Shown here piece by piece: positions 6,101 through 23,422 of a DNA stretch of 64,000 nt. The stretch is taken from contig NZ_LMGK01000006.1 in the NCBI RefSeq assembly GCF_001427125.1, positions 97,375 through 161,374 on the forward strand. The letters run 5' to 3'. Made by a program: the position numbers and the translations under genes. The number at the start of each line of letters is the position of its first letter. Position 1 is the stretch's first letter. The DNA comes from Pseudomonas sp. Root562 (GTDB lineage Bacteria > Pseudomonadota > Gammaproteobacteria > Pseudomonadales > Pseudomonadaceae). Below the pieces are notes generated by a model. The model ran no database searches, was not told where the DNA came from, and worked only from the letters and a program-made list of their open reading frames with translations.

Positions 6101-9100
6101 GATGGTCAGGACTTCATCGTCACCACCGAAGACATCAGCACCACCTTCGGCGGCCAGGGCGACGACTTCATCCTTGGTGCCAAGACCAACTTGCCACCGA
6201 CCGGCAACGAAGGTGACGACTGGATCGAGAAGGGCACCCAGGACGGTGCACCTGGCGATAACGCCTCGCCGTTGGCCAACGATGATGTGATCGGCAACGA
6301 CATCTTTATCGGTGGCGCTGGCTTCGACGAAATGATCGGCGAGGGTGGCGATGACATCTTCGTCGGCAGCGATGCCCAGGACAATATGGACGGTATGTCG
6401 GGCTTCGACTGGGTGACCCATAAGAATGACAAGATCGGCGTGACCGTCGACCTGACCATGGCCGCGCTGGCGCAGCCACACGGTAACGCGCCAAATCAAA
6501 ACAACGGGCCGTTCAACCCGGTCGGCGCATCGCCGGCCTCGATCCTCGACCGGTTTGCCGAGGTCGAAGGCTTGTCCGGTTCGAAATTCGGCGATGTGCT
6601 CAAGGGCGATAATGTTGATGCGGTCACCATCGTTGACCACGGTGGTACGACGGGCAGTGCGCTGACCAATGTGGCGTTGATCCGCGGGCTGGAGCAGTTC
6701 CTGGCCGACGCCGGTTTGCCGACCACCGGCTTTGCCACGGGCAATATCATCCTGGGTGGCGATGGCAGCGACCTGATCGAGGGTCGTGGTGGTGATGACC
6801 TGCTCGACGGCGACAAATGGCTTAACGTCAGGATTGCGGTTTATGCCCCTGACGACACCAACCATAGCGGCCCTGAGATCGCCTCCTTCGACAGCATGGT
6901 CGAGATGATCCCGTTCATGATGGACGGTACCTATAACCCGGGTCAGCTCAAGGCCGTGCGGGAAATCCTGCCCGGTACCTCGACAGGCGGAGCCGCCTAC
7001 GACACCGCGATTTTCTCCGGGCAGCAGTCCGAGTATGTGGTGACGCGCGACACCCGCGGTACGCTCAATACAGCGGACGATGTCTGGACGGTGGCCGATA
7101 CCGTAGCAGGGCGCGACGGCACCGATACCCTCCTGCATATCGAACGCCTGCAGTTCTCCGATACCCAGCAAGTGCTGCTGCCGGGGCTCAATGCGCAACC
7201 GGTTGGCAGACCGAACATCGCCGACGCAAACGGCGGGGCGATCACGGTGGGCGACGTGCTGACGGTCAGCGTGGCCGGGGTGAGCGACGCCGACAATATT
7301 GGTGGCAGCCTCAACAACTCCTCGGTGTCCTACTACTGGCAATTCGAGGCGGATCCAGGCAGCGGCGTTTTCGAAGACATCATCTTGTTGCCGGCCGGCG
7401 ACCTGGCGTTCCAGAGTGCCGACGGCACCACGTTCAAGGTCTCGCCCGACCTTGCCGGGTTATCGCTGCGGGTCAAGGCAATCTACCAAGATGGGCATGG
7501 CACTACTGAAGTGGTGTTCTCGCAGCCGACGGCCGTGGTCGTTCCCGGCGCGCCGGTCGTACCGACGTCGCCGACACCCGTGGCCGATGCCACGGCCGGT
7601 GGCGAGGGCCTTCACATGGTCCGCTCCGACCTCAACTTCATCCTCGATCAGATCAAGATTGCCGAGGCTGACGCGGCCGGCCAGGACATGCTCTCGCTGA
7701 TCCCGAACATCCGCGCGCCGTTGGGCCTGCGTGCGGTCGATGGGTCGAACAACAACCTGCTGAACCTGAACGGCAACAACCACACCGAGTACGGTGCTGC
7801 CGATAACCTCTTCCCGCGGCTGAGCGACCCGGTCTTCAATCCGGCAGAAGGTGTACCTGCCGGTTTCTTTGGTCCCGGCTCGCCAGCCATTCCGGGTTCG
7901 TCTTATCAGCAAACCAGCGGCTTTGTGTTTGACTCGCAGCCGCGCACCATCAGTAACCTGATCGTCGACCAGACATCGAACAACCCGGCGGCCTATGCCA
8001 CGGCTTATGACCCTGGGGCCAACGGTCATCTCGACTTTGGCGTAACCGGTAGCGGTAACGACGACGTGCTCAAGGAGGGGGTACGGATCGTCGCCAGCCC
8101 TGGCATGGATGGCCAGTTCGGTACCGGCGACGACCACGATGTGTACCTGTTCGAGAACACCGCGGCGGATGCCGGATTGTCCGCGCCGTTCAATGCCTGG
8201 ATGACCTTCTTCGGGCAGTTCTTCGACCATGGCCTGGACCTGTTGACCAAAGGCGGTTCAGGCACTGTGTTCATCCCGCTGCAACCGGACGACCCGCTGT
8301 ATGTACCGGGCGGCAACACCAATTTCATGGTGTTGACCCGCGCGACCAACCAGCCAGGGGCGGACGGCGTGCTGGGCACGGCCGACGATGTCCGTGAACA
8401 CACCAACACCACCACGCCGTTCGTGGACCAGAACCAGACCTACAGCTCGCATCCCTCGCACCAGGTATTCCTGCGCGGATACGTGATGACAGAGGATGGC
8501 CCCAAAGCGACCGGCAATCTCATCACCAACCGTGACCTTGGGCCGGACGGCAAGTTTGGTACCGCAGACGACAGCGAAATCGGTGGCATGGCGACCTGGA
8601 AAGTGGTCAAGGCGCAGGCACGTGATGTGCTGGGTATCGATCTCACCGACGCCGATATCGACAGCAGTCCGCTGCTGGCGACGGACGCCTATGGCAACTT
8701 CATCAAGGGGCCGAACGGCTTCCCGCAAATTGTCGTTCGGCTTAACAATGGGCTGGACGGTATTGCCGGCAACGCCGATGACGTCACGACCCTCGTCGAA
8801 GGCAATCCGGCCAACCCGATAAGCCTGGTGAACGCGGTACGCACGGGCCATGCCTTCCTCAACGACATCGCCCATAACGCTGTGCCGGTTGTCGTCGGCG
8901 GGGTTTTGCAGGCGGATGGCGATGTCGATGTCGGCAATGCGCAGCCCGTTGGCCCGGGCGGCAACAACCTGACCTACGACAACGAACTGCTTGACGCTCA
9001 CTACATCGCCGGTGATGGCCGGGTCAACGAGAACATCGGCCTGACCGCAGTGCATGCGATCTTCCACGCCGAGCACAATCGATTGGTTGCGCAGACCAAG

Positions 9101-12100
9101 GACACCGTGCTCGATTCCAATGACGTGGCCTTCCTCAACGAGTGGCTGCTCTCGCCGGTTGCTGCCTTGCCGGTCAACCAGGCCGAGATCGATGCGCTGG
9201 TGTGGAATGGCGAGCGCCTGTTCCAGGCGGCCAAGTTCGGCACCGAGATGCAGTATCAGCACCTGGTGTTCGAGGAGTTTGCGCGGACCATCCAGCCTCG
9301 CGTTGACCTGTTCTTCGCACCGACCCAGGTCTATGACGTCGACCTTGATGCCTCGATCGTCGCCGAGTTTGCCCACACCGTGTACCGGTTTGGCCACTCG
9401 ATGCTGACCGAGACTGTCGATCGCTACGACGTCAATTTTGACGTGATTGGCGATCCGAGCAGCGCTGATCCCGATCAGCAACTGGGCTTGATCGCGGCGT
9501 TCCTCAACCCGTTGGCCTATGCCGCCAGTGGCGTGACGCCGGAGGATGCGACCAGTGCGATCGTGCGCGGGGTAACCCGGCAAGCCGGTAACGAAATCGA
9601 CGAGTTCGTCACCGAGGCGCTGCGCAACAACCTGCTGGGCCTGCCTCTTGACCTGCCGGCGATCAACATCGCCCGTGGTCGCGACGTGGGGATTCCCTCG
9701 CTCAATGCGATTCGCCGCGACATCTACAACCAGACCGGAGATACCCAACTCAAGCCGTACAGCAGCTGGGTCGACCTGGTGCAGCACCTCAAGCATCCGG
9801 AGTCGTTGATCAACTTCATCGCGGCTTATGGTACGCACAGCACGATCACGGGGGCGACTACGCTCGAAGGCAAGCGTGCCGCGGCGATGTTGTTGGTGTT
9901 CGGCGATGGCGGGATCAACGAGCCATCCGATCGCCTGGACTTCCTCAACGGCACCGGTACCTGGGCCAACGTAACGCGGGCGGGCAAAGACGGGGTTCTG
10001 GGGACTGCCGACGATCTGAAGGGTGTGACGATCACAGGGGTCGACGCCATCGATCTATGGATTGGTGGCCTGGCCGAAGAGAAAACGCCGTTTGGCGGCA
10101 TGCTCGGCTCGACCTTCAACTTTGTGTTCGAAAATCAAATGGAGAAACTGCAGGACGGCGACCGCTTCTACTACCTGGAGCGCACCTCTGGCCTGTCGAT
10201 GAATGCCGAGCTGGAAAGCAACTCGTTCGCCAAGCTGATCATGGCCAACACCTCGGCCACGCACTTGCCGGGCCTGGTGTTTTCGGACCCGGGCTTCTAT
10301 CTGGAGAGGGATCAGTCCAAGCAGTACAACGATGGCTTGGGCAATGCCGACCCGCTGGACGAGAACGGCCAGCAGGTGGTGTTCCGCGACAACCCGCTGA
10401 CTGCCGGACCGGACACCAACTACATCAAGTACACCGGTGACCAACACATCGTGCTGGGCGGTACCAACGATGCAGACATCCTCATCGCGAGTGAAGGCGA
10501 TGACACCGTCTGGGGTGACGGCGGCAACGACCGCATCGAGGGCGGTGACGGCAACGACCAGCTGCGCGGTGGTGCCGGTGACGACATCATCAGCGATATG
10601 GGCGGCGACGATAACATCCAGGGTGGCGACGGCAACGACGTGCTGCACGGTGGTAACGGCATCAACCTGATCATCGGCGGGTTCGGCAATGACTTCATCG
10701 TGACCGGTGAGGACGCCTCCGAGGCCATTGGTGGACAGGGCAATGACTTTATCCTGGGCAGCAAGGCCAACGAACAGGACATGGGTAACGAAGGCGACGA
10801 CTGGATCGAGAAGGGCACCTCCGACGGTGCGCCTGGCGACAACTTCGATCCGCTGGGCAACGACCCGGTCATCGGCAACGATGTCTTCATCGGTGGCAAC
10901 GAGAACGACAAGTTCAACGGTGAAGGCGGCGACGACATCATGGTCGGCAGTCTCGGCTTTGGTGACCGCTATATCGGTGGCTCGGGCTTTGACTGGGCAA
11001 CCTTCAAGGGGCTCGCCCAGGGCGTGAGCATCGATTACAGCGACCGCTTTTTCGATGTGCCGCCGGTTCCGGGCTCGGGTGCTTCGGCACTGGTGCGTTT
11101 CGACATCATGGAAGGTCTTTCGGGTTCATCGCACGGTGACTTCCTGCGCGGCGACAATCAAGATGCCGCATCGTTACCGGGTGCAGGTGCAACCGGCAGT
11201 GTGCTGACCAACATCAACCTGATCGACGGCCTGGCGGATGTGCTGCCGGCCGGAGCGACGTTCTTCGATGGCGGCAACATCATCCTCGGTGGCAGCGGCA
11301 GCGACCTTATCGAAGGTCGCGGTGGCGACGACATCATCGACGGTGACAAGTGGCTCAACGTACGCATCAGCGTCCGGGCAAATGCCGATGGTACCGGACC
11401 GGAAATCGCTACCTTCGACAGCATGGAGCCACTGGTTCCGTTCATGCTCAACGGTACGTACAACCCGGGTCAGTTGATCATCAAGCGGGAGATTCTGACG
11501 GGCGATGACAGCTTCGACACTGCGGTGTTCTCCGGTAATTCGACGGAATACATCGTTTCTGTCGAGGGCAACACAGTCATCGTGACGGATCTGGTGGCGG
11601 GGCGTGATGGTGTCGATCGCTTGACGGGCATCGAGCGTCTGCAATTCTCTGACCTGGCGCAGTCATCCGGCGTTGGTACTGCCTTGAACGAGGGGCCATC
11701 GGGTCATCTGGCGATTCTCGATGATGCTACCGGTCTGCGTGACGACACGCCTGTGGCCGGCCAGTTGCTGCGCGTCAGCGGTCGTGCCGTACACGATGCG
11801 GACAACGTAAGCGGCGCCAATCCGACCGGTACGTTGTCCGGAGCGGTGGCTTACTACTGGCAGGTGGAAAACATTCCAGGCACGGGGATCTATGAGGACA
11901 TCACCGTTGTTGCCGCCGGCGAAGCCTCGCGGGCGACCGGGACCACCTACCGGGTGACGGACGATGTGGCGGGTCTGAACATTCGCGTTCGGGCGGTGTA
12001 TCAGGATGCCAAGGGCACGCTGGAAATCGTCGACTCGTCGGCGAACAGCGCACCCACCGCGGGGCCGACGGTCACCGGGCTTTTGGTGGAGGACCAAGTG

Positions 12101-14254
12101 TTGACCGCTGACCCATCGAGCATCATCGATCTGGATGGCCTCAGCAATCCGCAGTTCACCTACCAGTGGCAGGCAACCAACGGGGTCAGCTTCGTCGACA
12201 TCGTCGGAGCCACCAGTAGCACGTTCACGCTTGGCCAGGACCAGGCCGGCGACCAGGTGCGGGTGGTGGTCAGTTACGTGGATGACTTTGGTGTATCCGA
12301 GAGCGTGGCGTCCGACCCTTCGGACCCGGTCGCCAACGTCAACGATGCACCCACCGGTGCGTTGCTGATCAGCGATACGACACCGGATCAAGGACAGGTG
12401 TTGACCGCGCTGACTGCCGGGATTGCCGATGAGGATGGGCTGGGCACCTTCAGCTTCCAATGGCAGCAAGGTACTGGCGCTTCCTTCACCGACATTAACG
12501 GCGCGACCGCTGCGACCTTCACCCCGGGCTTTGCGCAGGGCAATCTGCAATTGCGGGTGATCGTGCGCTATACCGACGGCTTCGGTACGCTGGAGACGCT
12601 GACCTCGGCGGCAACCGCTGCCGTTACGGTAACGCCTGGCGTGGTGCTGGTGGGTACCCTTCTTGCTGACACCCTCACCGGTGGCGCGGGTGCCGATGTG
12701 CTTAGTGGCCTGAGCGGCAACGATACGCTCAATGGCCTGGCCGGTAATGACCAACTGCTAGGTGGCCTCGGCAATGACATCCTCAACGGCGGAGACGACA
12801 ACGATATCCTCAACGGCGATATCGGCGACGACTTTCTCAACGGTGGCCTCGGCGCGGATGCCATGAATGGCGGTCTCGGCAACGACACCTTCGTGGTGGA
12901 CAATGTCGGCGACGTTGTCACTGAGATTGCCTTGGGCGGTACCGATCTGGTGCAAACCAGCCTGGCCAGCTACGTGCTGGGTGCCAACCTCGAGAACCTG
13001 GCCTATACCGGTGCGGGCAGCTTTACCGGTACCGGTAATGCGCTGGCCAACATCATCACTGGCGGGGTTGGTAATGACGTCCTCAGTGGCGGGGACGGCA
13101 ACGACACCCTCAACGGCGGGCTTGGCGCGGATGCCATGAACGGCGGTGCCGGCAACGACACCTTCGTGGTGGACAATGTCGGTGACAGCGTCACCGAAGC
13201 GTTGGGCGGTGGTACCGATCTGGTGCAAACCAGCCTGGCCAGCTACCTGCTCGGGGCCAACGTCGAGAACCTGACCTATACGGGGGCAGGTAACTTCACC
13301 GGTACGGGCAATGCGCTGGCTAACACCCTGACCGGCGGGGTGGGTAACGACATCCTCGATGGCGGTGCGGGTGCTGACCAGATGGCAGGGGGCGCTGGCA
13401 ACGACACCTACATCGTCGATGTGGTCGCTGATGGGGTGTTCGAGGTGGCGGGTGGCGGTTCGGATAGCGTGCAGACGACGCTGGCCAGCTACGTGCTTGG
13501 TAATAATGTCGAGAACCTGGCTTACACCGGAGTCAACAACTTCGTCGGTAACGGTAACGGGCTGAACAATAACATCGTCGGCGGGGCAGGTAATGACACC
13601 CTCAACGGCAACAGCGGCAACGACATCCTTACCGGCAACGCAGGTAACGACACGCTCAATGGTGACATCGGCAACGATCAGCTGTTGGGTGGCATAGGCA
13701 CCGATACCCTGAACGGCGGTATCGGCGATGATGGCCTCGACGGTGGTGACGGAAACGATGCCTTGAATGGTGACGCAGGCAACGACACGTTGCTGGGTGG
13801 GCTGGGTAATGACGTGCTCGATGGCGGTACCGGCAACGATCTGCTCCAGGGCGGCGATGGCAGCGACACCCTCAACGGTGGTATCGGTAACGACACATTG
13901 CTGGGCGGTATCGGCAATGACTTTATCGATGGCGGAGTGGGCAACGATAGGGTCACTGGCGGTGCCGGCGACGATGTGATGGTCGCCAGCGTTGGCAACG
14001 ACGTCTTCCTGTTCGCGGCGGGCTTCGGGGCCGACCAGATCATCGGCTTCGATGCCAACGCGGCGGGGGGCCAGGATCTGCTCGATATTTCCGCATTCGG
14101 TGTCACGGCTGCGACCTTTGCCAGCACTGTCATCATCACCGATGTCGGTGCGGATACCCTGCTCAGCTCCGCAGGAGGCGCTGAAACCATCCGCCTGGTC
14201 GGTGTGGCCGATGCGACAACCATCACTGCCTCAGACTTCATTCTGGCTACTTGA
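3140..14254 (+). CDS. Giant secreted RTX protein with two animal-haem-peroxidase domains (PepA-like)
   Basis: This 3704-residue protein has two animal-peroxidase domains at residues about 1-890 and 1490-2420. In each, GQFFDHGLD carries the expected distal His (H161, H1697), and RFGHSML carries the expected proximal haem His (H550, H2086). Nine copies of the PERCAL-type calcium motif (GxDGxxGTxDD) begin at residues 119, 204, 264, 336, 1655, 1740, 1801, 1871 and 2282. RTX nonapeptides follow each peroxidase domain and dominate the C-terminus (about 3170-3614), after Ig-like modules. The protein ends in the hydrophobic DFILAT expected of a type I secretion signal. Pseudomonas putida PepA (PP_2561) has the same two-domain design. 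The likely role is a calcium-dependent extracellular or surface peroxidase or adhesin. Oddly, the REHNR signature reads SEHNR and AEHNR. Confidence 0.93.
5853..6400 (+). repeat. RTX nonapeptide block 1
   Basis: GGxGxDxxx-type repeats such as [16 protein letters not shown] follow the first peroxidase domain. They are expected to fold into a calcium-loaded beta-roll after export. A matching block follows the second domain at about 10440-10960, which supports a whole-unit duplication inside the gene. Confidence 0.85.
12650..13990 (+). repeat. C-terminal RTX repeat array with three longer repeats
   Basis: Dense GGxGNDxLxG nonapeptides contain longer units. Two include the near-identical phrase [12 protein letters not shown] at about 12880 and 13150; a third, diverged unit lies near 13400. 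Each unit continues through 'LVQTSLASY' or 'SVQTTLASY' and an 'ENLxYTG' turn. The block lies immediately before the C-terminal secretion signal, as in other type I RTX substrates. Confidence 0.88.
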
Positions 14255-14491: not shown

Positions 14492-15229
14492 ATGTCGAAC
14501 ATTTCGGAAAAAGTAGTGGTGATCACTGGCGCCAGCAGCGGTATTGGCGAGGCGGCCGCGCGTCTTTTAGCTGGCAAGGGGGCACACGTCGTGCTGGGTG
14601 CACGTCGCACGGATCGCCTCGAAAGCCTCTGCCGTGAGATCAATGCCGCGGGCGGGAGCGCCCAATTCAAGGCGGTTGATGTCACCAGCCGGTCTGACGT
14701 GCAAGCGTTTGTGGATTTTGCCGTCAGCCTCCATGGTCGCGTCGATGTGATCGTCAATAACGCCGGTGTAATGCCTCTGTCGAAGCTTGAAGCGCTGAAG
14801 GTCGCTGAATGGGACCAGATGATCGACGTCAACATTCGCGGCGTCCTGCATGGTATTGCAGCAGGCCTGCCTCTGATGCAGAAGCAGAAATCCGGACAGT
14901 TCATCAATATAGCGTCTATCGGTGCATACACAGTCAGCCCGACAGCCTCTGTTTACTGCGCGACGAAATTTGCGGTACGGGCCATTTCAGAAGGACTGCG
15001 TCAGGAAGTTGGTGGAGACATTCGTGTCACCGTTATTTCGCCGGGGGTCACCGAATCGGAATTGGCCGAGAGCATCTCAGACGAAGGTGGACGGGCCGAG
15101 ATGCGTGAGTTTCGTAAGATCGCACTGCCTGCCCAGGCCATCGCCCGTGCTATTGCCTATGCCATCGAGCAACCTGCCGACGTTGATGTCAGTGAGCTGA
15201 TTGTCCGGCCAACCGCCAGCCCCTATTAA
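14492..15229 (+). CDS. Classical short-chain dehydrogenase/reductase
   Basis: This 245-residue cytosolic NAD(P)-dependent oxidoreductase has the cofactor loop TGASSGIG at 12-19, the structural NNAG at 88-91, and a catalytic triad read as S141, Y154 and K158 (YCATK). The Arg pair after the second strand (GARRTDR) suggests NADP(H). An AAAGGAT-like ribosome site precedes the ATG. A small Atu4866-like gene follows after 25 bp and is probably co-transcribed. The substrate cannot be read from the sequence; SDRs of this subgroup are usually annotated only as oxidoreductases. It has its own leader after the upstream terminator, so it is not part of the RTX transcript. Confidence 0.92.
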   Translation: MSNISEKVVVITGASSGIGEAAARLLAGKGAHVVLGARRTDRLESLCREINAAGGSAQFKAVDVTSRSDVQAFVDFAVSLHGRVDVIVNNAGVMPLSKLEALKVAEWDQMIDVNIRGVLHGIAAGLPLMQKQKSGQFINIASIGAYTVSPTASVYCATKFAVRAISEGLRQEVGGDIRVTVISPGVTESELAESISDEGGRAEMREFRKIALPAQAIARAIAYAIEQPADVDVSELIVRPTASPY

Positions 15230-15254
15230 TGTGGCGAGACTGGAGGAAAAGAAA

Positions 15255-15512
15255 ATGACGGTCAAAAAGTCCGCAGATCAAGACAAATACGTCGGCATGT
15301 GGGTTACGGCAGATGGGCATATTCGCCATGAGCTATTGCCAGGCGGCCGATATGATGAGGCCCGAGGCAAGACAGCGAGCGCCTACCAGGGAAGATATTG
15401 GCTGGAAGGTGACCACATTGAATACGTCGATGACACCGGGTTTACCGCTGATGGCGAGTTCCGGGAGGGGATTTTGTATCACGCAGGCATGATTCTGTAT
15501 CGCGAGGACTAG
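15255..15512 (+). CDS. Small Atu4866-domain protein
   Basis: This 85-residue soluble protein resembles the Agrobacterium Atu4866 family, whose function is unknown. Typical strings are KYVGMWVTADG, HELLPGGRYDEARG, YVDDTGFTADG and YHAGMILYRE. The ATG at 15255 is chosen because GGAGG lies 8 bp upstream; an in-frame upstream extension to 15201 overlaps the SDR end and has no ribosome site. It sits 25 bp after the SDR. The family often neighbours oxidoreductases, so it may act with that SDR, but this is inference. The fold is expected to be a small beta-barrel. Confidence 0.85.
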   Translation: MTVKKSADQDKYVGMWVTADGHIRHELLPGGRYDEARGKTASAYQGRYWLEGDHIEYVDDTGFTADGEFREGILYHAGMILYRED

Positions 15513-15666
15513 AAGCTGACCTTAGCGGTGATGAGCGTCGCTCCATCGAGGCTCATCAGGAATCACCGCGCATGGCGTAAAAAAGTTGTACAAGATCGGT
15601 CCTGATGGCGTAAAAACTATACATTAAGCTATTTTTGTATAGAATTTACAAAAGGCCGAGACGATC
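15513..15666 (+). promoter_or_regulatory. Promoter region of the chalcone-isomerase-like gene with a duplicated motif
   Basis: A block reading ATGGCGTAAAAA plus a TGTACA-type half-site occurs twice, at about 15573-15592 and 15605-15623. The second copy forms a full PplR-type operator (listed separately). The first keeps only the single half-site TGTACA at 15587-15592, with no partner 12 bp to either side. It looks like a decayed tandem duplication. Confidence 0.6.
15618..15641 (+). promoter_or_regulatory. PplR/LitR-type operator upstream of the chalcone-isomerase-like gene
   Basis: TATACA (15618-15623), 12 bp, TGTATA (15636-15641) matches the published PplR1 consensus T(G/A)TACA-N12-TGTA(C/T)A at every position. 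The second half-site runs into a -10-like TATAGAAT, and the ATG follows 25 bp later. This predicts light-inducible transcription of the downstream pair. Confidence 0.8.
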
Positions 15667-16224
15667 ATGAACGTGGCTGATTCCAAGCGTTGCTTTGGAC
15701 ATCGTCTGTCGAGATGCTGGCTGTTCGCGTTGTTGCTGGCGGTACCTTGCTGGGCGGATTGGCGTCCCGCACTGCCAGACGGGCGTCTGTTGGGCAGCGG
15801 CGACTTTACCTGGTTCGGCGTGAGTCTCTACACAGCGCGTTTGTGGAGCCCAGGGATGCCGATGACCTGGGACCAGCCTTTTGCACTCGAACTGGTTTAT
15901 CACCGTGCCCTTTCCCGGGACGCACTGGTTGAGGCCAGCCTCAAGGAAATGCGTCGCATGGCAAAGGCTCGTCCAGATGAGCCCACACTCCAACGCTGGT
16001 CCAGTGAAATGCGTGATGCCTTCGTCGATGTTCGGCCGGGAATGCGCATTACCGGGCTTTACCATCCGGGTAAAGGCTGCACTTTCTTCGTCGACGGCCA
16101 ACTGCGCCGGCGGGTCGAGGACCCTGCATTCGCCCGTGCCTTCTTCGACATTTGGCTGGACCCGCGTACTCGGGACAAAGAACTGCGTCAACGCCTGCTG
16201 GGGATGGCCGGGCCGGCGGAGTGA
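15667..16224 (+). CDS. Exported chalcone-isomerase-like protein
   Basis: This 185-residue protein carries a basic start and a hydrophobic signal segment (WLFALLLAVP), with probable cleavage after CWA near residue 30. The rest matches the chalcone-isomerase-like bacterial family: FGVSLYTARLWSP near the start, RDALVEASLKEMRR in the middle and GCTFFVDG near the end. True chalcone isomerases act on flavonoids, but these bacterial proteins are thought to bind fatty acids or lipids in the periplasm. It is first in a pair with a DUF3833 lipoprotein gene 10 bp downstream. Both are regularly found with Cfa/DUF1365/DUF2878 genes, so a role in modified-lipid handling is likely. A PplR-type operator lies 26 bp upstream. 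Confidence 0.82.
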   Translation: MNVADSKRCFGHRLSRCWLFALLLAVPCWADWRPALPDGRLLGSGDFTWFGVSLYTARLWSPGMPMTWDQPFALELVYHRALSRDALVEASLKEMRRMAKARPDEPTLQRWSSEMRDAFVDVRPGMRITGLYHPGKGCTFFVDGQLRRRVEDPAFARAFFDIWLDPRTRDKELRQRLLGMAGPAE

Positions 16225-16234
16225 GGAGGTTGAG

Positions 16235-16771
16235 ATGCGTCGATTAGCGGTACTGCTCGTTAGCCTGTTGCTGGTCAGCTGTAACAACGTTGGCGTGGAC
16301 CACTACGCGAAGGAGCGACCCGCCCTGGATCTGGTGGCCTTTTTCTCCCGGCCGGTACAGGCTTGGGGGTTGTTCCAGAATCGCTCGGGCGAGGTGGTCA
16401 AACGTTTCCATGTCCAGATTGAAAGTCGCGTCGAAGGACAACAATTGATCCTCGACGAGCGATTTCTCTACAGCGATGGCACGCGTCAGCGGCGTACCTG
16501 GACGCTGGAACGGACCGGTTCCGGGCGTTGGCGTGGCCGTGCGGACGATGTCGTCGGAGAGGCCAGCGGCGAGATCGCGGGCAACGCGCTGCACTGGCGC
16601 TACCGCCTTGACCTGCCGGTTGACGGCCGGCATTGGGAAGTGGATATGGACGACTGGATGTACCTGATGGACGAAGACACGATCATCAATCGCACGACTA
16701 TGAGCAAGCTTGGCGTCGAGTTGGGACAGGTGATCCTGTTCTTTCGTCGCCAGCCGGCGGCATCTCCCTGA
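16235..16771 (+). CDS. DUF3833 family lipoprotein
   Basis: This 178-residue predicted lipoprotein has the lipobox LVSC, with Cys16 as the lipidated residue. Family features include LDLVAFFSRPVQAWGLFQNRSG and DDWMYLMDEDTIINRTTMSKLG. The residues after the Cys are Asn-Asn, so the sorting destination is uncertain, but outer membrane is likely. The start at 16235 follows a GAGGTTGAG ribosome site 10 bp after the chalcone-isomerase-like gene. DUF3833 has no proven biochemical activity; it co-occurs with Cfa-type lipid genes. The gene converges on DUF2878 with only 47 bp between them and no clear terminator. Confidence 0.87.
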   Translation: MRRLAVLLVSLLLVSCNNVGVDHYAKERPALDLVAFFSRPVQAWGLFQNRSGEVVKRFHVQIESRVEGQQLILDERFLYSDGTRQRRTWTLERTGSGRWRGRADDVVGEASGEIAGNALHWRYRLDLPVDGRHWEVDMDDWMYLMDEDTIINRTTMSKLGVELGQVILFFRRQPAASP

Positions 16772-16818
16772 ACCCACGATGGCCGAGCCGAGCAGGCGCT
16801 ATTCGCCCATTGGAAAGA

Positions 16819-17307
16819 TCAGCGCCGAGCCGCCAGTCGCAGGATAAGCGGCATCCATACAGCCCAAAGCGGCGCGAGCAGCAGGACTGTGCCCAAAGTG
16901 CCCCAAGGCAGACCGACACCCGCCAACGATGCGCCGGCGATGTAAGCCGGGGGACCGCCGCACATGCCCAGTAGCGCGCCGTACCAGATGGGATGTCGAG
17001 CCCAGGCCAGGCTATGGCGAAGTCCACTGGCCAGCACCAGCCACAGTACCGCCAGCCATAGAGGTAAGGGGCGCTGGGCAAAATCGAAAACGCCCAGCGC
17101 ACCCAGGCCGGCATCCAGTGCGCAGCCTGCCATTGCCACACAGACCAGCGTGGTTGCTTCCTCGCGCGGCCGCGGGCAAGCAGCCACATGCACCAACAAA
17201 CCTGCCGCCACCGGGAGCAGCAGCCAGGGATGCCGCTCGCTCAGCACGCAAGCCCACCACGCGGCTTGCATCCACAGTGCGTTGCCGATCAACCAGGCCC
17301 GGCTCAT
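16819..17307 (-). CDS. DUF2878 integral membrane protein
   Basis: This is a 162-residue, very hydrophobic protein of about five membrane segments, rich in Trp and Leu (WLIGNALWMQAAWWACV, PLPLWLAVLWLVLASG). The start at 17307 overlaps the stop of the Cfa-like gene by one base (TGATG), so translation is coupled. A longer in-frame reading to 17406 would run inside that gene and is rejected. DUF2878 is of unknown function and is conserved in these lipid-modification operons. It is the last gene of the six-gene minus-strand operon. Confidence 0.85.
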   Translation of the reverse strand: MSRAWLIGNALWMQAAWWACVLSERHPWLLLPVAAGLLVHVAACPRPREEATTLVCVAMAGCALDAGLGALGVFDFAQRPLPLWLAVLWLVLASGLRHSLAWARHPIWYGALLGMCGGPPAYIAGASLAGVGLPWGTLGTVLLLAPLWAVWMPLILRLAARR

Positions 17308-18566
17308 CAGGCACCCGGCAGCGAAGCTCGACGTGCGGCCGGGGCTGCCCAGAGCAGTTGCGCGACGCCAATTGCGCGCTCCTCGAAACCGCCCTGGCAA
17401 TAACACAGGTAGAACTCCCAGAGGCGTTGAAATGTTTCGTCATAGCCCAGCTCAAGCAACGCGGTGCGCGACTGGCGCAAGTTGTCGCGCCAGTGCTGCA
17501 GAGTCCGCGCATAGTCCTGTCCGAAGTCCTCCATGTGCACCAGGTTCAACGTGGTATGGCAACTGGCGGTCTGCAGCATGACGCTCAAGGAGGGCAGGGC
17601 ACCGCCGGGAAAGATATGGCGCTGAATGAAATCCACCGAGCGCTGGGCCTGTTCATAACGCTGGTCGCGAATGGTGATGGCCTGCAACAGCATCAAACCG
17701 TCTTCTTTGAGCAGCGATGCACACCGACGGAAGTAAACCGGCAGATAGCGGTGCCCCACTGCCTCGATCATCTCGATCGAGACCAGTTTGTCGAAGCGTC
17801 CGCGCAGGTCGCGGTAATCCTCGCGCAGGACGGTAATGCGTTCTTGCAGGCCAAGATCGCGGACGCGCTGCACGGTATGGGCGTACTGCGCCTCGGACAA
17901 TGTGGTGGTCGTCACCCGGCACCCGTGACGGGTAGCGGCATGGATCGCCAGGCTACCCCATCCGGTACCGATCTCGAGCAGATGATCGTCGGGGCTCAGC
18001 GCGAGTTTCTCGCAGATACGCTCGAGTTTGTTCAGTTGGCCTTGCTCCAGGCTCTGCTCCAGACTGTCGAACATTGCTGCCGAGTACATCATGGTCGGGT
18101 CCAGCAGCCGCTCGAACAGGGCATTGCCCAAATCGTAATGAGCGAGAATATTGCGCCGCGCGCCTTGCCTGTTGTTTCGATTGAACCAATGCAGCAGGCG
18201 CAGGACCGGTCGACCCAGGCGCGCCAACCCGCCATCAAGGGCGTCGAGCACTTCCAGGTTGGCGACGAAGAGTCGGGTGACCGCCGCCAGGTCCGGCGTT
18301 CGCCAGTAGCCGTGGATGTAAGCTTCACCGGCACCGATCGAGCCGTTGGCAGCCACCATGCCCCAAGCTGCTTCGTCGAAGATCTCGACCTCGGCGTGCA
18401 GTGTGCTGCCGGCATCGCCAAACAGCCACTGTCGGCCCTGATAGATCAGGCGCAGACGTCCTTGGCGCAGGTTGCGCAGTTGGGAGAGCACGGCGCTTCT
18501 GCCCAGGCCGCCGAACAACGGCGCCAAGCCAAAGGATTTACTGACGCTCAGAGTTGGATCGGACAT
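17307..18566 (-). CDS. Cyclopropane-fatty-acyl-phospholipid synthase family SAM methyltransferase (UfaM/Cfa-like)
   Basis: This 419-residue enzyme is expected to transfer a methyl(ene) group from S-adenosylmethionine to an unsaturated acyl chain of membrane phospholipid. The SAM site is LLEIGTGWGSLAIHAA, followed by VTTTTLSEAQYA and KLVSIEMIEAVGHRYLPVYF, all typical of Cfa. The start at 18566 (MSDPTLSV) is chosen because the in-frame extension to 18680 lies inside DUF1365. It overlaps DUF1365 by 29 bp. In P. putida the light-induced ufaM gene is a furan-fatty-acid methylase of this family. With an FAD oxidoreductase and DUF1365 beside it, that role is more likely here than ordinary cyclopropanation, but it is inference. 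Confidence 0.9.
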   Translation of the reverse strand: MSDPTLSVSKSFGLAPLFGGLGRSAVLSQLRNLRQGRLRLIYQGRQWLFGDAGSTLHAEVEIFDEAAWGMVAANGSIGAGEAYIHGYWRTPDLAAVTRLFVANLEVLDALDGGLARLGRPVLRLLHWFNRNNRQGARRNILAHYDLGNALFERLLDPTMMYSAAMFDSLEQSLEQGQLNKLERICEKLALSPDDHLLEIGTGWGSLAIHAATRHGCRVTTTTLSEAQYAHTVQRVRDLGLQERITVLREDYRDLRGRFDKLVSIEMIEAVGHRYLPVYFRRCASLLKEDGLMLLQAITIRDQRYEQAQRSVDFIQRHIFPGGALPSLSVMLQTASCHTTLNLVHMEDFGQDYARTLQHWRDNLRQSRTALLELGYDETFQRLWEFYLCYCQGGFEERAIGVAQLLWAAPAARRASLPGA

Positions 18567-19353
18567 GCTCGGGCTCCTCGTGGAAGTCATGGCCAAGGTC
18601 TTGGCTGCTCTGACGGGTGGTGTGGGCAAAGAGTGGGGTGCGCTTGAGCAACAGGCACATGGCTTGCCAATAAATGGCACTGAGGGTACGCAGGCTCATC
18701 CAGGGGAAGGCCAGTACGTGTCGTCTCAATGCAGCGGCATCCAGCGGCTTGCGCTGCAGCGCCAGATCGGCCTCGAAGACTTTCTGTTCTTCGCGGTGGT
18801 TTTCCATGTGGATGCGCACGTGCGCGCCATCGATGTGGAAGCGCATGTGGTATTGCATGTCCATCGGCAAGAACGGCGAGACATGGAATTGCTTGCTGAC
18901 CGAGAATTGTCGCGGCTGACCGGGCAGCACCGACAGCACATAGTGAAAACGCTCACGCCAAGGTGTGTTACGCACCTCCAGCACAATCGCTGCCAGGAGG
19001 CCATCGCTGTCGTGGCAAAAGTAGAAGCTCACCGGATTGAAAGAAATCCCCCAACTGCGCGGCTGGGTCAGCAAATGAATGGGGCCGCACGGCGCCTGGC
19101 CCAAGGCCTTGGCCACCACTTCGCGCACCGCGTCTTTCAAAGGTATGCCGCGACGAGTCCAGGCTGGCAGGTAATCGGTTTCTCGCCAGCTCAGCGGTGC
19201 CAGCCGAGTAGCACCGAGTAACGGAGACAGGCCCAGCAGCAATTGCTGTTCGTCCAGATCCAGGTAAAGCATGGCGCTGCGATAGCGGAATCCGTGGTAC
19301 CGCGGCATCAGGCGTCGGTGGCTGACCCAACCGTAGCAAAGGCTGCTGTTCAC
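18538..19353 (-). CDS. DUF1365 family protein
   Basis: This 271-residue soluble protein has the family strings MPRYHGFRYRSAMLYLDLDE, GISFNPVSFYFCHD and FHVSPFLPMDMQY. It begins with GTG, overlapping the FAD-oxidoreductase stop as GTGA, a typical coupling. DUF1365 has no established reaction; the Rhodobacter homologue RSP1090 belongs to the singlet-oxygen (RpoE-ChrR) regulon next to a Cfa-like gene. It probably acts with the neighbouring FAD enzyme and methyltransferase on the same acyl substrate. Confidence 0.9.
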   Translation of the reverse strand: MNSSLCYGWVSHRRLMPRYHGFRYRSAMLYLDLDEQQLLLGLSPLLGATRLAPLSWRETDYLPAWTRRGIPLKDAVREVVAKALGQAPCGPIHLLTQPRSWGISFNPVSFYFCHDSDGLLAAIVLEVRNTPWRERFHYVLSVLPGQPRQFSVSKQFHVSPFLPMDMQYHMRFHIDGAHVRIHMENHREEQKVFEADLALQRKPLDAAALRRHVLAFPWMSLRTLSAIYWQAMCLLLKRTPLFAHTTRQSSQDLGHDFHEEPEHVRSNSERQ

Positions 19354-20597
19354 AGGCGCTCCCCGAACCGTTCGGCGACGCCCAAAGCGCTGACCACGCC
19401 ATCCTCATGGAAGCCGTTGGCCCAGTAAGCGCCGCAGAAGTAGCTGTGCTGGTTTCCCTGTAGTTCACCCTGACGTGCCTGGGCCGCCATGGCGGCAAGG
19501 CTGTATTGCGGATGTGCGTAATCGAAGCGTGCCAAAACCTGCGACGGATCCACGCAATCGCCCTGATTGAGGCTTACGCAGAAGGTCACCGGTGCGTCGA
19601 GGCCTTGCAGAATATTCATGTTATAGGTCACGGCGGCCGGCGCGTGTGCCGGGCCGCCGAGACGATAGTTCCAGCTGGCCCAAGCCTTGCGCCGACTGGG
19701 CAACAGGCGCGTGTCGGTGTGCAGCAATACTTCATTGGCGGCATAGGTCAGGGCTCCGAGCACCTCATGCTCGGTGGTCGTCGGTTTCTCCAGCAGCGCC
19801 AGAGCCTGGTCGCTATGGCAGGCGAACACGACTTTGTCGAAGCGTTCCTGGCCCGCGGCGCTGGTGATCACCACCCCGGTATCATCCCGGCGGACGCCCA
19901 TCACCGGGCAATTGAGGCGAATGCGCTCGCTGAAGGTCCAGCACAACGGCTTCACATAACTGCGCGAGCCACCCTCGATCACCCGCCACTGCGGCCGCTG
20001 GCTGATCGAGAGCAGGCCGTGGTTGCGAAAGAAACGCACGAAAAAGTGCAGCGGAAAACGCAGCATATCGGCCCTTGATACCGACCAGATGGCCGACCCC
20101 ATGGGGACGATATAGTGATGGATGAAACGCTGCCCGTAGCCTCGCATGCTCAGGTAGTCGCCAAGGCTTATGGCTTGATCAATGCGGTGGTCGTCAAGGT
20201 CTGTTACCGCCTGGCGGTTGAAGCGCACGATATCGCGCAGCATCCCCCAGAAGCCCGGCGACAGCAGATTGCTGCGCTGTGCGAAAAGGGTGTCCAGATT
20301 ATTGCCGTTGTACTCCAGACCGCTGTCCGGATCGTTCACGGAAAAGCTCATCTCGGTGGGGCGCGAGACGACTCCCAGGCGATCGAGCAAGCGAATGAAG
20401 TTGGGGTAGGTCCAGTCGTTGAAAACGATGAAGCCGGTGTCCACGGCATAGCGCTGGCCCTGCCAATCAATGTCGACAGTATGGGTATGACCGCCAATCC
20501 AGTCAGCCGCTTCGAACACGGTCACCTCATTGCTACGCGACAACAGATAGGCACAGGTCAGCCCAGAAATCCCGCTGCCGATAATGGCGATACGCAT
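19350..20597 (-). CDS. NAD(P)/FAD-dependent oxidoreductase (flavin amine oxidoreductase fold)
   Basis: This 415-residue flavoprotein opens with the Rossmann dinucleotide motif IGSGISGL (6-13), followed by the EAADWIGGHTHT segment and VDTGFIVFND, as in amine-oxidase/desaturase-like enzymes. The C-terminal region keeps FAD-domain features (YFCGAYWANGFHEDGVVSA). It probably oxidises or desaturates a methylated acyl chain, by analogy to furan-fatty-acid pathways. It overlaps DUF1365 by 4 bp and lies 6 bp after the SDR stop, so it belongs firmly to the operon. No membrane segments are seen. Confidence 0.9.
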   Translation of the reverse strand: MRIAIIGSGISGLTCAYLLSRSNEVTVFEAADWIGGHTHTVDIDWQGQRYAVDTGFIVFNDWTYPNFIRLLDRLGVVSRPTEMSFSVNDPDSGLEYNGNNLDTLFAQRSNLLSPGFWGMLRDIVRFNRQAVTDLDDHRIDQAISLGDYLSMRGYGQRFIHHYIVPMGSAIWSVSRADMLRFPLHFFVRFFRNHGLLSISQRPQWRVIEGGSRSYVKPLCWTFSERIRLNCPVMGVRRDDTGVVITSAAGQERFDKVVFACHSDQALALLEKPTTTEHEVLGALTYAANEVLLHTDTRLLPSRRKAWASWNYRLGGPAHAPAAVTYNMNILQGLDAPVTFCVSLNQGDCVDPSQVLARFDYAHPQYSLAAMAAQARQGELQGNQHSYFCGAYWANGFHEDGVVSALGVAERFGERL

Positions 20598-20603
20598 ATG
20601 ACG

Positions 20604-21353
20604 CTATTCCTGTTCGGTTCGCGCCAGTCGACGGCCCAGGGCCAGGCGCCAACGCGCCGGCAGGGCGCCAAGCAAGCGCAGGACGAGAGTGAAGAGGCGT
20701 GGAAAGTTGATCTCCAGCGGTCGTCGCGTCAGGCGCGCGACGACATGCCGCGCAGCGCGGTCGGCCGTCCAGAGTTGTGGCATGGCAAAGGTATTGCGCC
20801 GAGTCAGGGGGGTGTCGATGAACCCCGGGCTGACCAGCGTTACATCAATGCCTTCGGCGTGTAGATCCAGGCGCAGGGATTCAACGAGATAACGCAGGGC
20901 CGCTTTGGACGCGCCATAGGCTCCGGCCCGCGGCAGCGCCAGCCAGGTCACTGAGCTGCCGATCACTACCAGATGGGGTCGGTGCCCGCGGCGCAGCAGT
21001 GGCAGTGCCGCCTGCAAACAGTAGCTGACCGCCAACAGGTTGGTACGCATCACGCGCTCGACTGTCTCGGCCTCGAACTTGCCCGGCACCAGGTATTCGC
21101 AGGTGCCGGCGTTCAGAATCACCAGGTCCAGTGCGCCCCACGCCTGCTCGATGTTGTCGCAAATGGCCGAAACTTGACGCGGGTCAGCCACATCGCCGGT
21201 AGCGAGCAAGGCCCCTGGGTAGCGCAGCACGAGCGGCATCAGTGCTTCCGCCCGCCGCCCACCCAAGGCCACCGAATGGCCTTGCTCCAGAAGCCGTTCA
21301 GCCAGGGCGGCACCAAGGCCGCTGCTGGCCCCTGTCAGCCAGCAGCGACTCAT
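20604..21353 (-). CDS. Short-chain dehydrogenase/reductase of the lipid cassette
   Basis: This 249-residue NAD(P)-dependent SDR has the cofactor loop TGASSGLG at 7-14, NAG at 81-83 and the catalytic residues Y146 and K150 (YGASK), with S133/S134 upstream. The C-terminal 40 residues are Leu/Arg-rich (LFTLVLRLLGALPARWRLALG) and may sit at a membrane surface, which fits a lipid substrate. Its start overlaps the NTF2-like gene stop by 4 bp (ATGA). SDRs of this kind lie in the Rhodobacter and Vibrio RpoE-ChrR lipid clusters. Substrate unknown. Confidence 0.9.
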   Translation of the reverse strand: MSRCWLTGASSGLGAALAERLLEQGHSVALGGRRAEALMPLVLRYPGALLATGDVADPRQVSAICDNIEQAWGALDLVILNAGTCEYLVPGKFEAETVERVMRTNLLAVSYCLQAALPLLRRGHRPHLVVIGSSVTWLALPRAGAYGASKAALRYLVESLRLDLHAEGIDVTLVSPGFIDTPLTRRNTFAMPQLWTADRAARHVVARLTRRPLEINFPRLFTLVLRLLGALPARWRLALGRRLARTEQE

Positions 21354-21772
21354 GCAAGCCTCCCTTTGATCCAGCCGATCACTGCGCCAAGTACGGGAAC
21401 GTGCTCGTAGATCAGGGCACCGGCATCGAAATAGTCGTGGTGCAGGTAGACATGCGTTGCCCAGCGCAGGTGGCTGCAGCCTTGCAGACTGATCGGCTGG
21501 CCACGGGACAGGCGCGGATGACGGAAGTGCAGGTTCCAGCGCAGATAACCTTGACCGGGGGCGGTTTCATCCACGTCCAGGAGTTCGTAGCGGATATCCT
21601 CGACGTTGCTGTACAGGTTTTCAAAATAGCTACGCAGTGCCGGCAGGCCATTGAGTTGGTGCAACGGATCACGAAATTGAACGTTGTTGCTGTACAGCTC
21701 GCCCAGTTTATCCAGGCAATCAGCGTTCAGCGTTGTGAACGTGTCAGCGAAATGGCGGAGATATGCAGACAT
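21350..21772 (-). CDS. NTF2-like/SnoaL-type small protein, first gene of the light-responsive operon
   Basis: This 140-residue protein is a predicted NTF2-like alpha+beta barrel: LGELYSNNVQFRDPLHQLNG, an aromatic mid-region (GYLRWNLHFRHP) and a terminal HHDYFDAGALIYEHVP strand. Such folds bind small hydrophobic ligands or act as isomerases/hydratases. It opens the six-gene operon. A GGAG ribosome site lies just upstream of the ATG, and two tandem PplR-type operator/promoter units lie at 21787-21866. A -10-like TACAAT ends only 18 bp upstream of the start, so the leader would be short. The exact reaction is unknown. Confidence 0.87.
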   Translation of the reverse strand: MSAYLRHFADTFTTLNADCLDKLGELYSNNVQFRDPLHQLNGLPALRSYFENLYSNVEDIRYELLDVDETAPGQGYLRWNLHFRHPRLSRGQPISLQGCSHLRWATHVYLHHDYFDAGALIYEHVPVLGAVIGWIKGRLA

Positions 21773-21791
21773 GGCCGGCTCCAGGCAAAAT

Positions 21792-21815
21792 TGTACAAGT
21801 TGAGAAAACTGTACA
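21792..21815 (-). promoter_or_regulatory. PplR-type operator, proximal copy, with -10 element
   Basis: TGTACA (21792-21797), N12, TGTACA (21810-21815) is a perfect match to the PplR1 consensus. Read on the minus strand, the gene-proximal half-site runs into TACAAT (21795-21790), a 5/6 match to -10. Predicted to drive the lipid operon. Confidence 0.85.
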
Positions 21816-21842
21816 GGTTTACCTGAAGCCTACGGGGAAAAT

Positions 21843-21866
21843 TGTACAAGTCAATATTCTTGTACA
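21843..21866 (-). promoter_or_regulatory. PplR-type operator, distal copy
   Basis: TGTACA (21843-21848), N12, TGTACA (21861-21866) is a second perfect match, exactly 51 bp from the first. The 14-mer AAAATTGTACAAGT is identical in both copies (21787-21800 and 21838-21851), so the whole operator plus -10 has been duplicated in tandem. Confidence 0.85.
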
Positions 21867-21887
21867 CTTTTTGTATCGGTCGTTGCG

Positions 21888-22343
21888 TTACTTGTCTTGA
21901 CCGCCAAGCCTTGCCAGTTGACGGCGAAGATCAGCCACTTCGGTCTCAAGCGACTGAACTCTTTCCAGAGCGGCAATCTTTTCGCTGACGTCGTGCTGTA
22001 TGCCAATGTAGTAGGTCAACTGATCGGCATCGTTGTACACGGGAGTGATAGACAACTCGTTCCAGAACAGGCTGCCATCCTTACGGTAGTTGCGCAGCAC
22101 CTGACGGCAGGGCTGACCGAGGCGGATGGCGTCGCGGATTGCGTTGAGGCTGGCCTGGTCATGATCGGCTCCCTGCAGGAACCGGCAATCCTGATAGAGT
22201 ATTTCGTCGGCACTGTAGCCGGTCAGGCGCTCGAAGGCAGGGTTGGCATAGATGAGAATGCTGTCACTGCCTTCCTGCTCGGCCACGACGATGCCGTCAT
22301 TGGAGGCTTCGACCATAAGTTGCAGGAGTTTGGCGTCAATCAT
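21888..22343 (-). CDS. Short LOV-domain blue-light photoreceptor (PpSB2-LOV-like)
   Basis: This 151-residue flavin photoreceptor has a single LOV/PAS core, with the photo-adduct cysteine at C53 in YQDCRFLQG. The FMN-contacting Asn and Gln segments are NELSITPV and IGIQHDV, and a C-terminal helix (LETEVADLRRQLARL) probably dimerises. The start at 22343 places the Cys at 53, as in P. putida PpSB1-LOV; longer starts at 22403 or beyond would add an atypical extension. At positions where slow PpSB1-LOV has R61 and R66, this protein has H61 and L66, which resembles fast-recovering PpSB2-LOV. It is divergent from the PplR-like gene and lies upstream of the lipid operon. In P. putida such LOV proteins are required for PplR-dependent light induction. 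Confidence 0.92.
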   Translation of the reverse strand: MIDAKLLQLMVEASNDGIVVAEQEGSDSILIYANPAFERLTGYSADEILYQDCRFLQGADHDQASLNAIRDAIRLGQPCRQVLRNYRKDGSLFWNELSITPVYNDADQLTYYIGIQHDVSEKIAALERVQSLETEVADLRRQLARLGGQDK

Positions 22344-22504
22344 GGTCCGGGCTCGCTGTAGTTCGAGGATTTGCCTCACAGCGTAGTCGTCAGCGACAGC
22401 CATGCCTAGATGGCAAGACGCAGGAACCCGGACCGCGATTGGCTGGTTAAATAGCGCCATGCCTGGTTTAGAATGGCGACACACTCAGGATGTAACGACT
22501 TTCA

Positions 22505-23422
22505 ATGACCGAGCCCCTCGAATCCGCCTCCGACGACGCCTTGCTCCCCATGCGCGAAGTCGCCAGCCTGACTGGCGTCAACCCGATCACCCTGCGGGCA
22601 TGGGAGCGTCGCCACGGATTGATCCGACCTGTTCGCACGGTAGGTGGGCATCGCCTGTATTCGCAGCAAGACATCGAACATATACGCAGCATCATGCTCT
22701 GGACCAGCCGAGGTCTGCCAATCAGCAAGATTGGCGCTTTGCTCAACCGGCAGCAGAACACGCCGGAGCTCGCTGTCACAGACGCGGCCGAAGCCCCTCT
22801 GCTCCAATGGCAACAGGCAATTCATCGTGCCACGCAGGCTTTTGATGGCGCCGAGCTGGAGCGCCTTCACGGGCAACTGTTCACGATCTACCCGAAGGCT
22901 ACGGTACTGGCGGCTGTTCTGCTGCCGGTCTGGCGCAGCCTGGCAGTTGGCGATGCTTTCGGTCGACGCAGTCAGTGGCTGTTCCTGGACGCCTTCTTTC
23001 GTGCGCGGTTGTTATTGCGACTGCAGATGAACCCGGGCAACGGTGCTTGCGTGCTGCTGGCCGACGGCTCTGGCCATGCACACGAACTGGAGCTGTTGTG
23101 CGCCGGCTTGTTGATGAGCAACGACCAGCTGCGCATTGAAGTGCTGAGCCCGGGCCAGCCCCTGGAAGAACTGCCATTGCTGTGTACAGCGATTCAGCCC
23201 GCCGCGCTGGTGTTGTTGGTCCAGACGCCACTGCAGGCCGATGCGCACAAGCGACTGCGTGCCCTTCAAATGGGCGTTACGTGCCCATTGGCCTTGGTCG
23301 GCGACGCAGCTGCCGCTTCGTCGTCAGGGCTTCGTGGTTCTTCAATTGCCGTATTGGGCAACGACGAAGCGAGTATTTTGCCCAGGCTGGAAGCCTTGGT
23401 AAGGGGAACGCTGCAAATATGA
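22505..23422 (+). CDS. MerR/LitR-family regulator, class II (PplR-like)
   Basis: This 305-residue regulator has an N-terminal MerR winged helix (residues about 13-65, including LTGVNPITLRAWERRHGL and GGHRLYSQQDI). Its C-terminal region keeps the cobalamin-domain outline (GSGHAHELELLCAGLLM). The Wx9EH motif that holds B12 in CarH/LitR is missing: the matching stretch reads WRSLAVGDAFGRRSQW. This fits class II LitR, which works with a LOV protein rather than adenosyl-B12. It is divergent from the LOV gene (161 bp between starts), which has no TGTACA operator, so autoregulation is not evident. Its expected targets are the three operators at 15618, 21792 and 21843. Confidence 0.92.
   Translation: MTEPLESASDDALLPMREVASLTGVNPITLRAWERRHGLIRPVRTVGGHRLYSQQDIEHIRSIMLWTSRGLPISKIGALLNRQQNTPELAVTDAAEAPLLQWQQAIHRATQAFDGAELERLHGQLFTIYPKATVLAAVLLPVWRSLAVGDAFGRRSQWLFLDAFFRARLLLRLQMNPGNGACVLLADGSGHAHELELLCAGLLMSNDQLRIEVLSPGQPLEELPLLCTAIQPAALVLLVQTPLQADAHKRLRALQMGVTCPLALVGDAAAASSSGLRGSSIAVLGNDEASILPRLEALVRGTLQI

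Follow-up and report, generated by a model that had tools for sequence, protein, structure and literature searches.

A compact cassette, predicted to make furan fatty acids and probably gated by light, is encoded in Pseudomonas sp. Root562 (Gammaproteobacteria) within a stretch of 64,000 nucleotides (NZ_LMGK01000006.1, positions 97,375 to 161,374), hereafter referred to as the window. In the preferred reading, to which we assign a probability of about 0.8 and which is predicted for this strain from its genes and operators, a LitR-type regulator would repress the cassette in the dark and a short LOV photoreceptor would lift the repression in blue light. The cassette is real and well conserved and belongs to an already known light regulon of Pseudomonas, the short-LOV/class II LitR type, which has been published for P. 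mendocina (PmlR/PmSB-LOV) and reported for P. putida KT2440 (PplR/PpSB-LOV) (PMC9758184). The original prediction, derived from the letters of the DNA, had recognized this wiring and described the regulon logic as not established, which was overstated in view of these publications.

Gene content and layout

A Pfam search confirms all ten cassette genes at the positions originally given for them (Chalcone_3, DUF3833, DUF2878, CMAS, DUF1365, an amine-oxidase-type flavin adenine dinucleotide (FAD) protein, short-chain dehydrogenase (SDR), SnoaL_2, PAS, and MerR). The features are as follows, in window coordinates.

15618-15641, no strand: exact LitR-type operator ahead of the CHI-like/DUF3833 pair (exact pattern scan)
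15667-16224, plus: chalcone-isomerase-like (CHI-like) protein, signal-peptide-like start by eye (Pfam PF16036, E 4e-13)
16235-16771, plus: DUF3833, predicted calycin-barrel lipoprotein (Pfam PF12915; lipobox-like Cys16; structure model)
16819-17307, minus: DUF2878, hydrophobic, likely a membrane protein (Pfam PF11086)
17307-18566, minus: predicted UfaM-type fatty acyl methylase, CMAS family (Pfam PF02353; Gln295 at the Cfa His266 position)
18538-19353, minus: DUF1365, predicted UfaO-type furan-forming oxygenase (Pfam PF07103; UfaO is a DUF1365 protein, PMC7380195)
19350-20597, minus: FAD oxidoreductase, predicted UfaD-type desaturase (Pfam PF01593; neighbor of DUF1365 and CMAS in 70 of the 78 class regions)
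20604-21353, minus: SDR (Pfam PF00106)
21350-21772, minus: NTF2/SnoaL-like protein, first gene of the operon (Pfam PF12680)
21792-21815, no strand: operator Site 2, between promoter and ATG of the lipid operon (exact pattern scan)
21843-21866, no strand: operator Site 1, over the TTGACT −35-like hexamer (exact pattern scan)
21888-22403, minus: short LOV photoreceptor, probably beginning with the Met at 22343 (PAS match, Cys53, 7a6p match)
22505-23422, plus: class II LitR-type MerR regulator without B12 motif (MerR helix-turn-helix matches; motif scan)

The six minus-strand genes (NTF2-like, SDR, FAD oxidoreductase, DUF1365, CMAS methyltransferase, and DUF2878, in this order) overlap or are separated by a few bases throughout, which is compatible with a single operon. 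The CHI-like and DUF3833 genes converge on this operon from the opposite strand, and the LOV and LitR genes are divergent neighbors at its head.

Operators and promoters

The published operator consensus T(G/A)TACA-N12-TGTA(C/T)A, i.e., TRTACA-N12-TGTAYA (PMC9758184), has six exact matches in the 6.2-Mb genome by pattern scan, three of them in the cassette, whereas approximately 0.36 exact sites are expected from the 60% GC composition and the reversed pattern gives none. The fourth genomic operator precedes a RudS-LitR-photolyase cluster on another contig (L130), and the remaining two (L132, L133) lie inside unrelated open reading frames. Operators had been predicted in both promoters, and this is borne out by the exact sites beginning at 15618, 21792, and 21843; by contrast, the originally assigned start at 15587 coincides with a lone half-site only (15586-15593). 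The arrangement of Site 1 over TTGACT and Site 2 before the ATG resembles the footprinted P6650 promoter of P. mendocina, where Site 1 likewise covers the −35 element and Site 2 precedes the ATG (PMC9758184).

The layout is maintained in relatives. Among 24 LitR-LOV-ufa cassettes (23 relatives and the window), both operators are exact and 51 bp apart in 17, one is exact in six, and none is exact in one, and TTGACT is present in 15. In the 17 two-site cassettes, between-locus identity amounts to 94% and 100% in the half-sites and 60% and 40% in the spacers; the half-site figure is partly built in, as the sites were chosen by pattern, and the alignment shows them at the same positions. Furthermore, an exact operator lies ahead of the CHI-like gene in 21 of the 23 core-bearing loci with a CHI match (window included). 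In 78 regions around DUF1365 from genomes of the class, the exact N12 sites (five) are confined to two Pseudomonadaceae regions, and other spacings from 6 to 18 yield 0-2 sites in total per spacing. No exact N12 operator occurs in the other 17 class regions with a LitR match (one of them also with ChrR), and the LitRs there therefore likely use other sites. As a separate observation, Table 1 of PMC4336711 gives the RpoE2 promoter of the Shewanella cfa/phrB operon (SO_3386) with TTGTACAAG between −35 and −10, possibly a LitR half-site, hence possible dual control of this extracytoplasmic function sigma factor promoter.

The LOV photoreceptor and the LitR regulators

The LOV protein comprises a lone PAS domain without an effector domain, whose adduct cysteine is residue 53 when the Met at 22343 is taken as the start, and its best solved match is 7a6p, a "sensory box protein" (E 6e-72). 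The adjacent LitR (22505-23422) matches MerR helix-turn-helix models only (Pfam) and contains no [ED]xHxxG vitamin B12-binding motif by a simple pattern, unlike the B12 photoreceptors of the class I LitR/CarH type; the motif is also found in 0 of 73 LitRs longer than 250 amino acids in the LOV loci. Together with the operators in the target promoters, these features are those of a short-LOV/class II LitR regulon, and the original assignment of the lipid genes to such a pair is supported.

The cassette thus shares with the P. mendocina and P. putida regulon a short LOV with Cys53, a class II LitR, the same operators, and a ufaM operon with SDR and FAD genes. In P. mendocina, a single nine-gene operon additionally contains pmlR1 and phrB, and the LOV gene is at another locus. 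In the window, by contrast, the lipid operon has LOV and LitR at its head, and a LitR-photolyase cluster is on another contig. This cluster (L130:8474-12803) comprises the operator, a RudS-like (TudS-DUF1722) gene, a LitR with a B12-binding_2 match, a photolyase, and an SDR; of the P. mendocina-type operon, it is the half that the window cassette lacks.

Distribution in short-LOV loci and Pseudomonadaceae

Short-LOV loci were taken as the best 80 of 282 relatives (79 distinct), and DUF1365 is present in 24 of the 79; 23 of these 24 are Pseudomonas loci with the same LitR-LOV-operon block. A window-like layout is found in P. monteilii, P. juntendi, and others, and presumably in P. putida KT2440. 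In Thioalkalivibrio denitrificans (L196:9992-19329), genes for a short LOV and GTP cyclohydrolase I occur together with UfaD-UfaO-UfaM-DUF3833-CHI genes; no LitR match occurs within the fetched stretch, and its LOV may use another partner. At the family level, DUF1365 occurs in 99 of 198 Pseudomonadaceae genomes, and a short LOV accompanies it in 96 of these 99 compared with 40 of the 99 genomes without DUF1365 (Fisher p 1.5e-19, not corrected for kinship). LOV matches weaker than approximately 1e-45, i.e., domains of larger proteins, were excluded, by which 136 of 139 genomes were kept. The two genes are within 13 kb of each other in 37 of the 96 genomes holding both.

Predicted furan fatty acid genes and a residue mark in UfaM

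In comparison with E. coli Cfa (6bqc), the window UfaM has Ala163 at the position of Cys139 and Gln295 at that of His266, two positions that we take to hold bicarbonate in Cfa. The His of cyclopropane synthases is thus replaced by Gln, as in 92 of 93 DUF1365-linked CMAS proteins but only 2 of 16 unlinked ones, a set defined by linkage and not of proven cyclopropane synthases (CMAS matches below 900 bp were excluded). The Cys139 position fails as a divider, with Cys in 10 of 93 linked and 4 of 16 unlinked proteins. Furthermore, the window UfaM scores below every NCBIfam cyclopropane synthase cut-off (260 vs. 400, 246 vs. 600, and 222 vs. 650).

The pathway of Rhodobacter sphaeroides begins with methylation of cis-vaccenoyl chains by UfaM, continues with their desaturation by UfaD, and ends with UfaO, a DUF1365 protein that inserts O2 to yield the methyl-furan acid (PMC7380195); the role of DUF1365, regarded as not established in the original prediction, had therefore been published. 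As in the pathway of R. sphaeroides and R. palustris (PMC7380195), a CMAS methylase, an FAD protein, and DUF1365 are encoded together here, assigned at the family level by Pfam, and genes of the UfaD, UfaO, and UfaM types lie side by side on the same strand in 70 of the 78 class regions. A fold search of the window UfaO for a calycin-type barrel gave no reliable match, and sequence searches found no solved relatives of DUF1365 or the CHI-like protein at E up to 1.

The CHI-like/DUF3833 pair and surrounding genes

For DUF3833, a lipoprotein with a barrel fold is predicted: the lipobox-like Cys16 is nearly invariant, and the structure model (pLDDT 95.9) has a ten-stranded up-and-down barrel of the calycin/nitrobindin type. 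The 186-amino-acid protein of the Rhodobacter operon is presumably also a DUF3833 protein. The family is given as of unknown function in PMC8465259. In some relatives (L143:15401-18353), the CHI-DUF3833 genes are joined by two further genes, one small and one photolyase-related (DPRP), an arrangement reminiscent of the cryB part of the regulon.

Directly upstream of the region, a plus-strand gene (3140-14254) encodes a 3704-amino-acid protein with animal haem peroxidase domains (six stretches) and RTX calcium-binding repeats (14 stretches). An SDR gene followed by an Atu4866-family gene (14492-15512, plus) lies just upstream of the CHI-like promoter, with no operator ahead of it in the exact-site scan. 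Rfam and tRNA scans of the window gave zero matches.

Exchange of sensors around the furan core

The Rhodobacter pathway is controlled by RpoE-ChrR (PMC7380195), whereas the window has LitR-type operators and no ChrR: the best match in this genome reaches 22.8 bits against a cut-off of 124.5, and none of the 198 Pseudomonadaceae genomes has a ChrR above it. The RpoE-ChrR singlet-oxygen type of regulon is thus lacking here. The expectation that RpoE-ChrR would stand beside homologous operons elsewhere proved correct. ChrR exceeds the cut-off in 9 of 274 class genomes (81 match the model at a loose threshold, mostly over a part of it, and only the nine are counted), all nine hold DUF1365 within 6 kb of ChrR (p 9e-6), and UfaM is also present in eight of the nine regions. 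An RpoE-type promoter, TGATCC-N16-19-CGTA(A/T), occurs in seven of the nine ChrR regions compared with 1 of 69 others. Likewise, a strong short LOV (E <1e-50) is found in 10 of the 274 genomes, nine of which have DUF1365 (p 7e-5). Strict mutual exclusion of ChrR and LOV was considered and set aside, 9 and 10 of 274 genomes with zero overlap being too few to show it.

By regulator, the 78 class regions comprise nine with ChrR, eight with a LitR with B12 motif, seven with a LitR without it, three with LOV and LitR, and 51 with none (the LitR match of L059 is a 163-amino-acid fragment, and L093, which also has a LitR match, was placed under ChrR). In a UfaO tree of 90 of 102 rows (10 near-identical Pseudomonas cassettes and two short proteins dropped), built by a quick method and with many weak forks, the LOV-LitR neighborhood requires two changes, both forced by starred branches, ChrR requires five, four of them forced, and all labels together require 22. 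L081, with the gene order RpoE-ChrR-RudS-photolyase-NTF2-SDR-UfaD-UfaO-UfaM, falls in a group near Pseudomonas whose joining support is 86 (not starred). The region L093 (genome G042), in which ChrR-RpoE and a LitR-like match both stand beside the core, is possibly an intermediate.

Different sensors on the same pathway are therefore a real class-wide pattern, yet one of several neighborhood changes. The proposal that light sensing replaces an oxidant sensor holds as this pattern but was overstated, 51 of 78 cores having no ChrR, LitR, or LOV within approximately 9.5 kb. The Shewanella oneidensis RpoE2-ChrR regulon (PMC4336711) and the Vibrio cholerae MerR/ChrR blue-light response (PMC5241685) similarly place a Cfa-like gene and a photolyase in a photo-oxidative regulon, and in V. 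cholerae a MerR protein shares the job (PMC5241685). Unlike here, these systems use a sigma/anti-sigma factor responding to oxidants, with no LOV photoreceptor mentioned in the available parts of either source (PMC4336711, PMC5241685). A literature search found no paper joining furan fatty acid, blue light, and photoreceptor.

Proposed mechanism and alternative explanations

In P. mendocina, LitR bound to two sites blocks RNA polymerase, the LOV protein with its blue-light Cys53-flavin mononucleotide (FMN) adduct binds and releases LitR, and ufaM is induced 25-33-fold by light (PMC9758184). By analogy, the class II LitR of the window, or one of its two paralogues, would likely keep the predicted furan operon, and with it the CHI-like/DUF3833 pair, repressed in darkness, RNA polymerase being blocked by LitR on two sites, and blue light would generate the Cys53-FMN adduct in LOV, which would bind LitR and free the operators. 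As predicted from R. sphaeroides, UfaM would methylate cis-vaccenoyl chains, UfaD would desaturate the methylated chains, and UfaO would insert O2 and close the methyl-furan ring. The furan lipid may then protect membranes against oxidants generated by light, and acyl chains may be handled in the envelope by DUF3833 and the CHI-like protein. The genes, the operators with their conservation, and the operon layout are thus observed here, regulation is predicted from close relatives and chemistry from family membership, and the benefit is inferred, including the "anticipatory protection" of membranes originally suggested.

Several points weigh against this light-gated furan reading. The genome encodes two short LOVs and three LitRs, not counting a fourth, weak MerR match, so that any of several pairs may act on the cassette. 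A half-site search by itself is at chance level (13 matches vs. 12.5 expected), a simple promoter scan gave three sites compared with 2.2 in shuffles and listed none for the lipid operon promoter, and TTGACT is absent from 9 of the 24 cassettes. In a P. mendocina gel shift under light, the LitR-LOV complex was still DNA-bound, contrary to the surface plasmon resonance result (PMC9758184). The assignment to UfaM/D/O of R. sphaeroides is made at the level of families.

The number of paralogues also allows the cassette to be light-controlled by LitR/LOV pairs on other contigs, with the adjacent pair acting mainly elsewhere. The three PplRs of P. putida act together (PMC9758184), and three LOV loci lack a neighboring core; this is nevertheless rather unlikely, as the LitR-LOV pair is kept beside the core in 23 relatives. 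It is less probable still, indeed improbable, that the operon yields methylated or cyclopropane fatty acids only: the CMAS family includes cyclopropane synthases, which are also the best solved matches of the window UfaM, but genes of the UfaD and UfaO types share its operon, and its scores and Gln295 set it apart from those enzymes. A somewhat stronger possibility, although still the less favored one, is that the CHI-like/DUF3833 pair shares the light switch and is unconnected with furan lipids. The pair has its own promoter and operator, it accompanies a photolyase-related gene in the relatives noted above, and single deletions of the three other genes of the Rhodobacter operon left fatty acids unchanged (PMC7380195). 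Conversely, DUF1365 is present in 38 of 42 class genomes with DUF3833 compared with 40 of 232 without it (kinship not corrected), and the three genomes in which LOV loci carry the pair by itself all have DUF1365 elsewhere.

Perspective

A broader and tentative view, which we hold to be doubtful, is that the furan core would be a plug-in membrane defense whose trigger has been exchanged repeatedly among a singlet-oxygen sigma factor, a B12-type LitR photoreceptor, and a LOV anti-repressor of LitR. For Pseudomonas, this would mean that the lipid is triggered by light itself and not by damage, and that an envelope carrier (the DUF3833 barrel lipoprotein and the CHI-like protein) for the modified acyl chains comes from another operon under the light switch. 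The present analysis adds a comparative picture of sensor exchange, a residue mark for UfaM, and a structural lead for DUF3833 to the published regulon. Databases lump UfaM-type methylases together with cyclopropane synthases, and the His-to-Gln mark may serve to tell the two apart. For the biology of these organisms, the cassette links light sensing in common Pseudomonas with an obscure lipid that may be protective, and presents one pathway under different sensors, damage-sensing in some bacteria and light-sensing in others.

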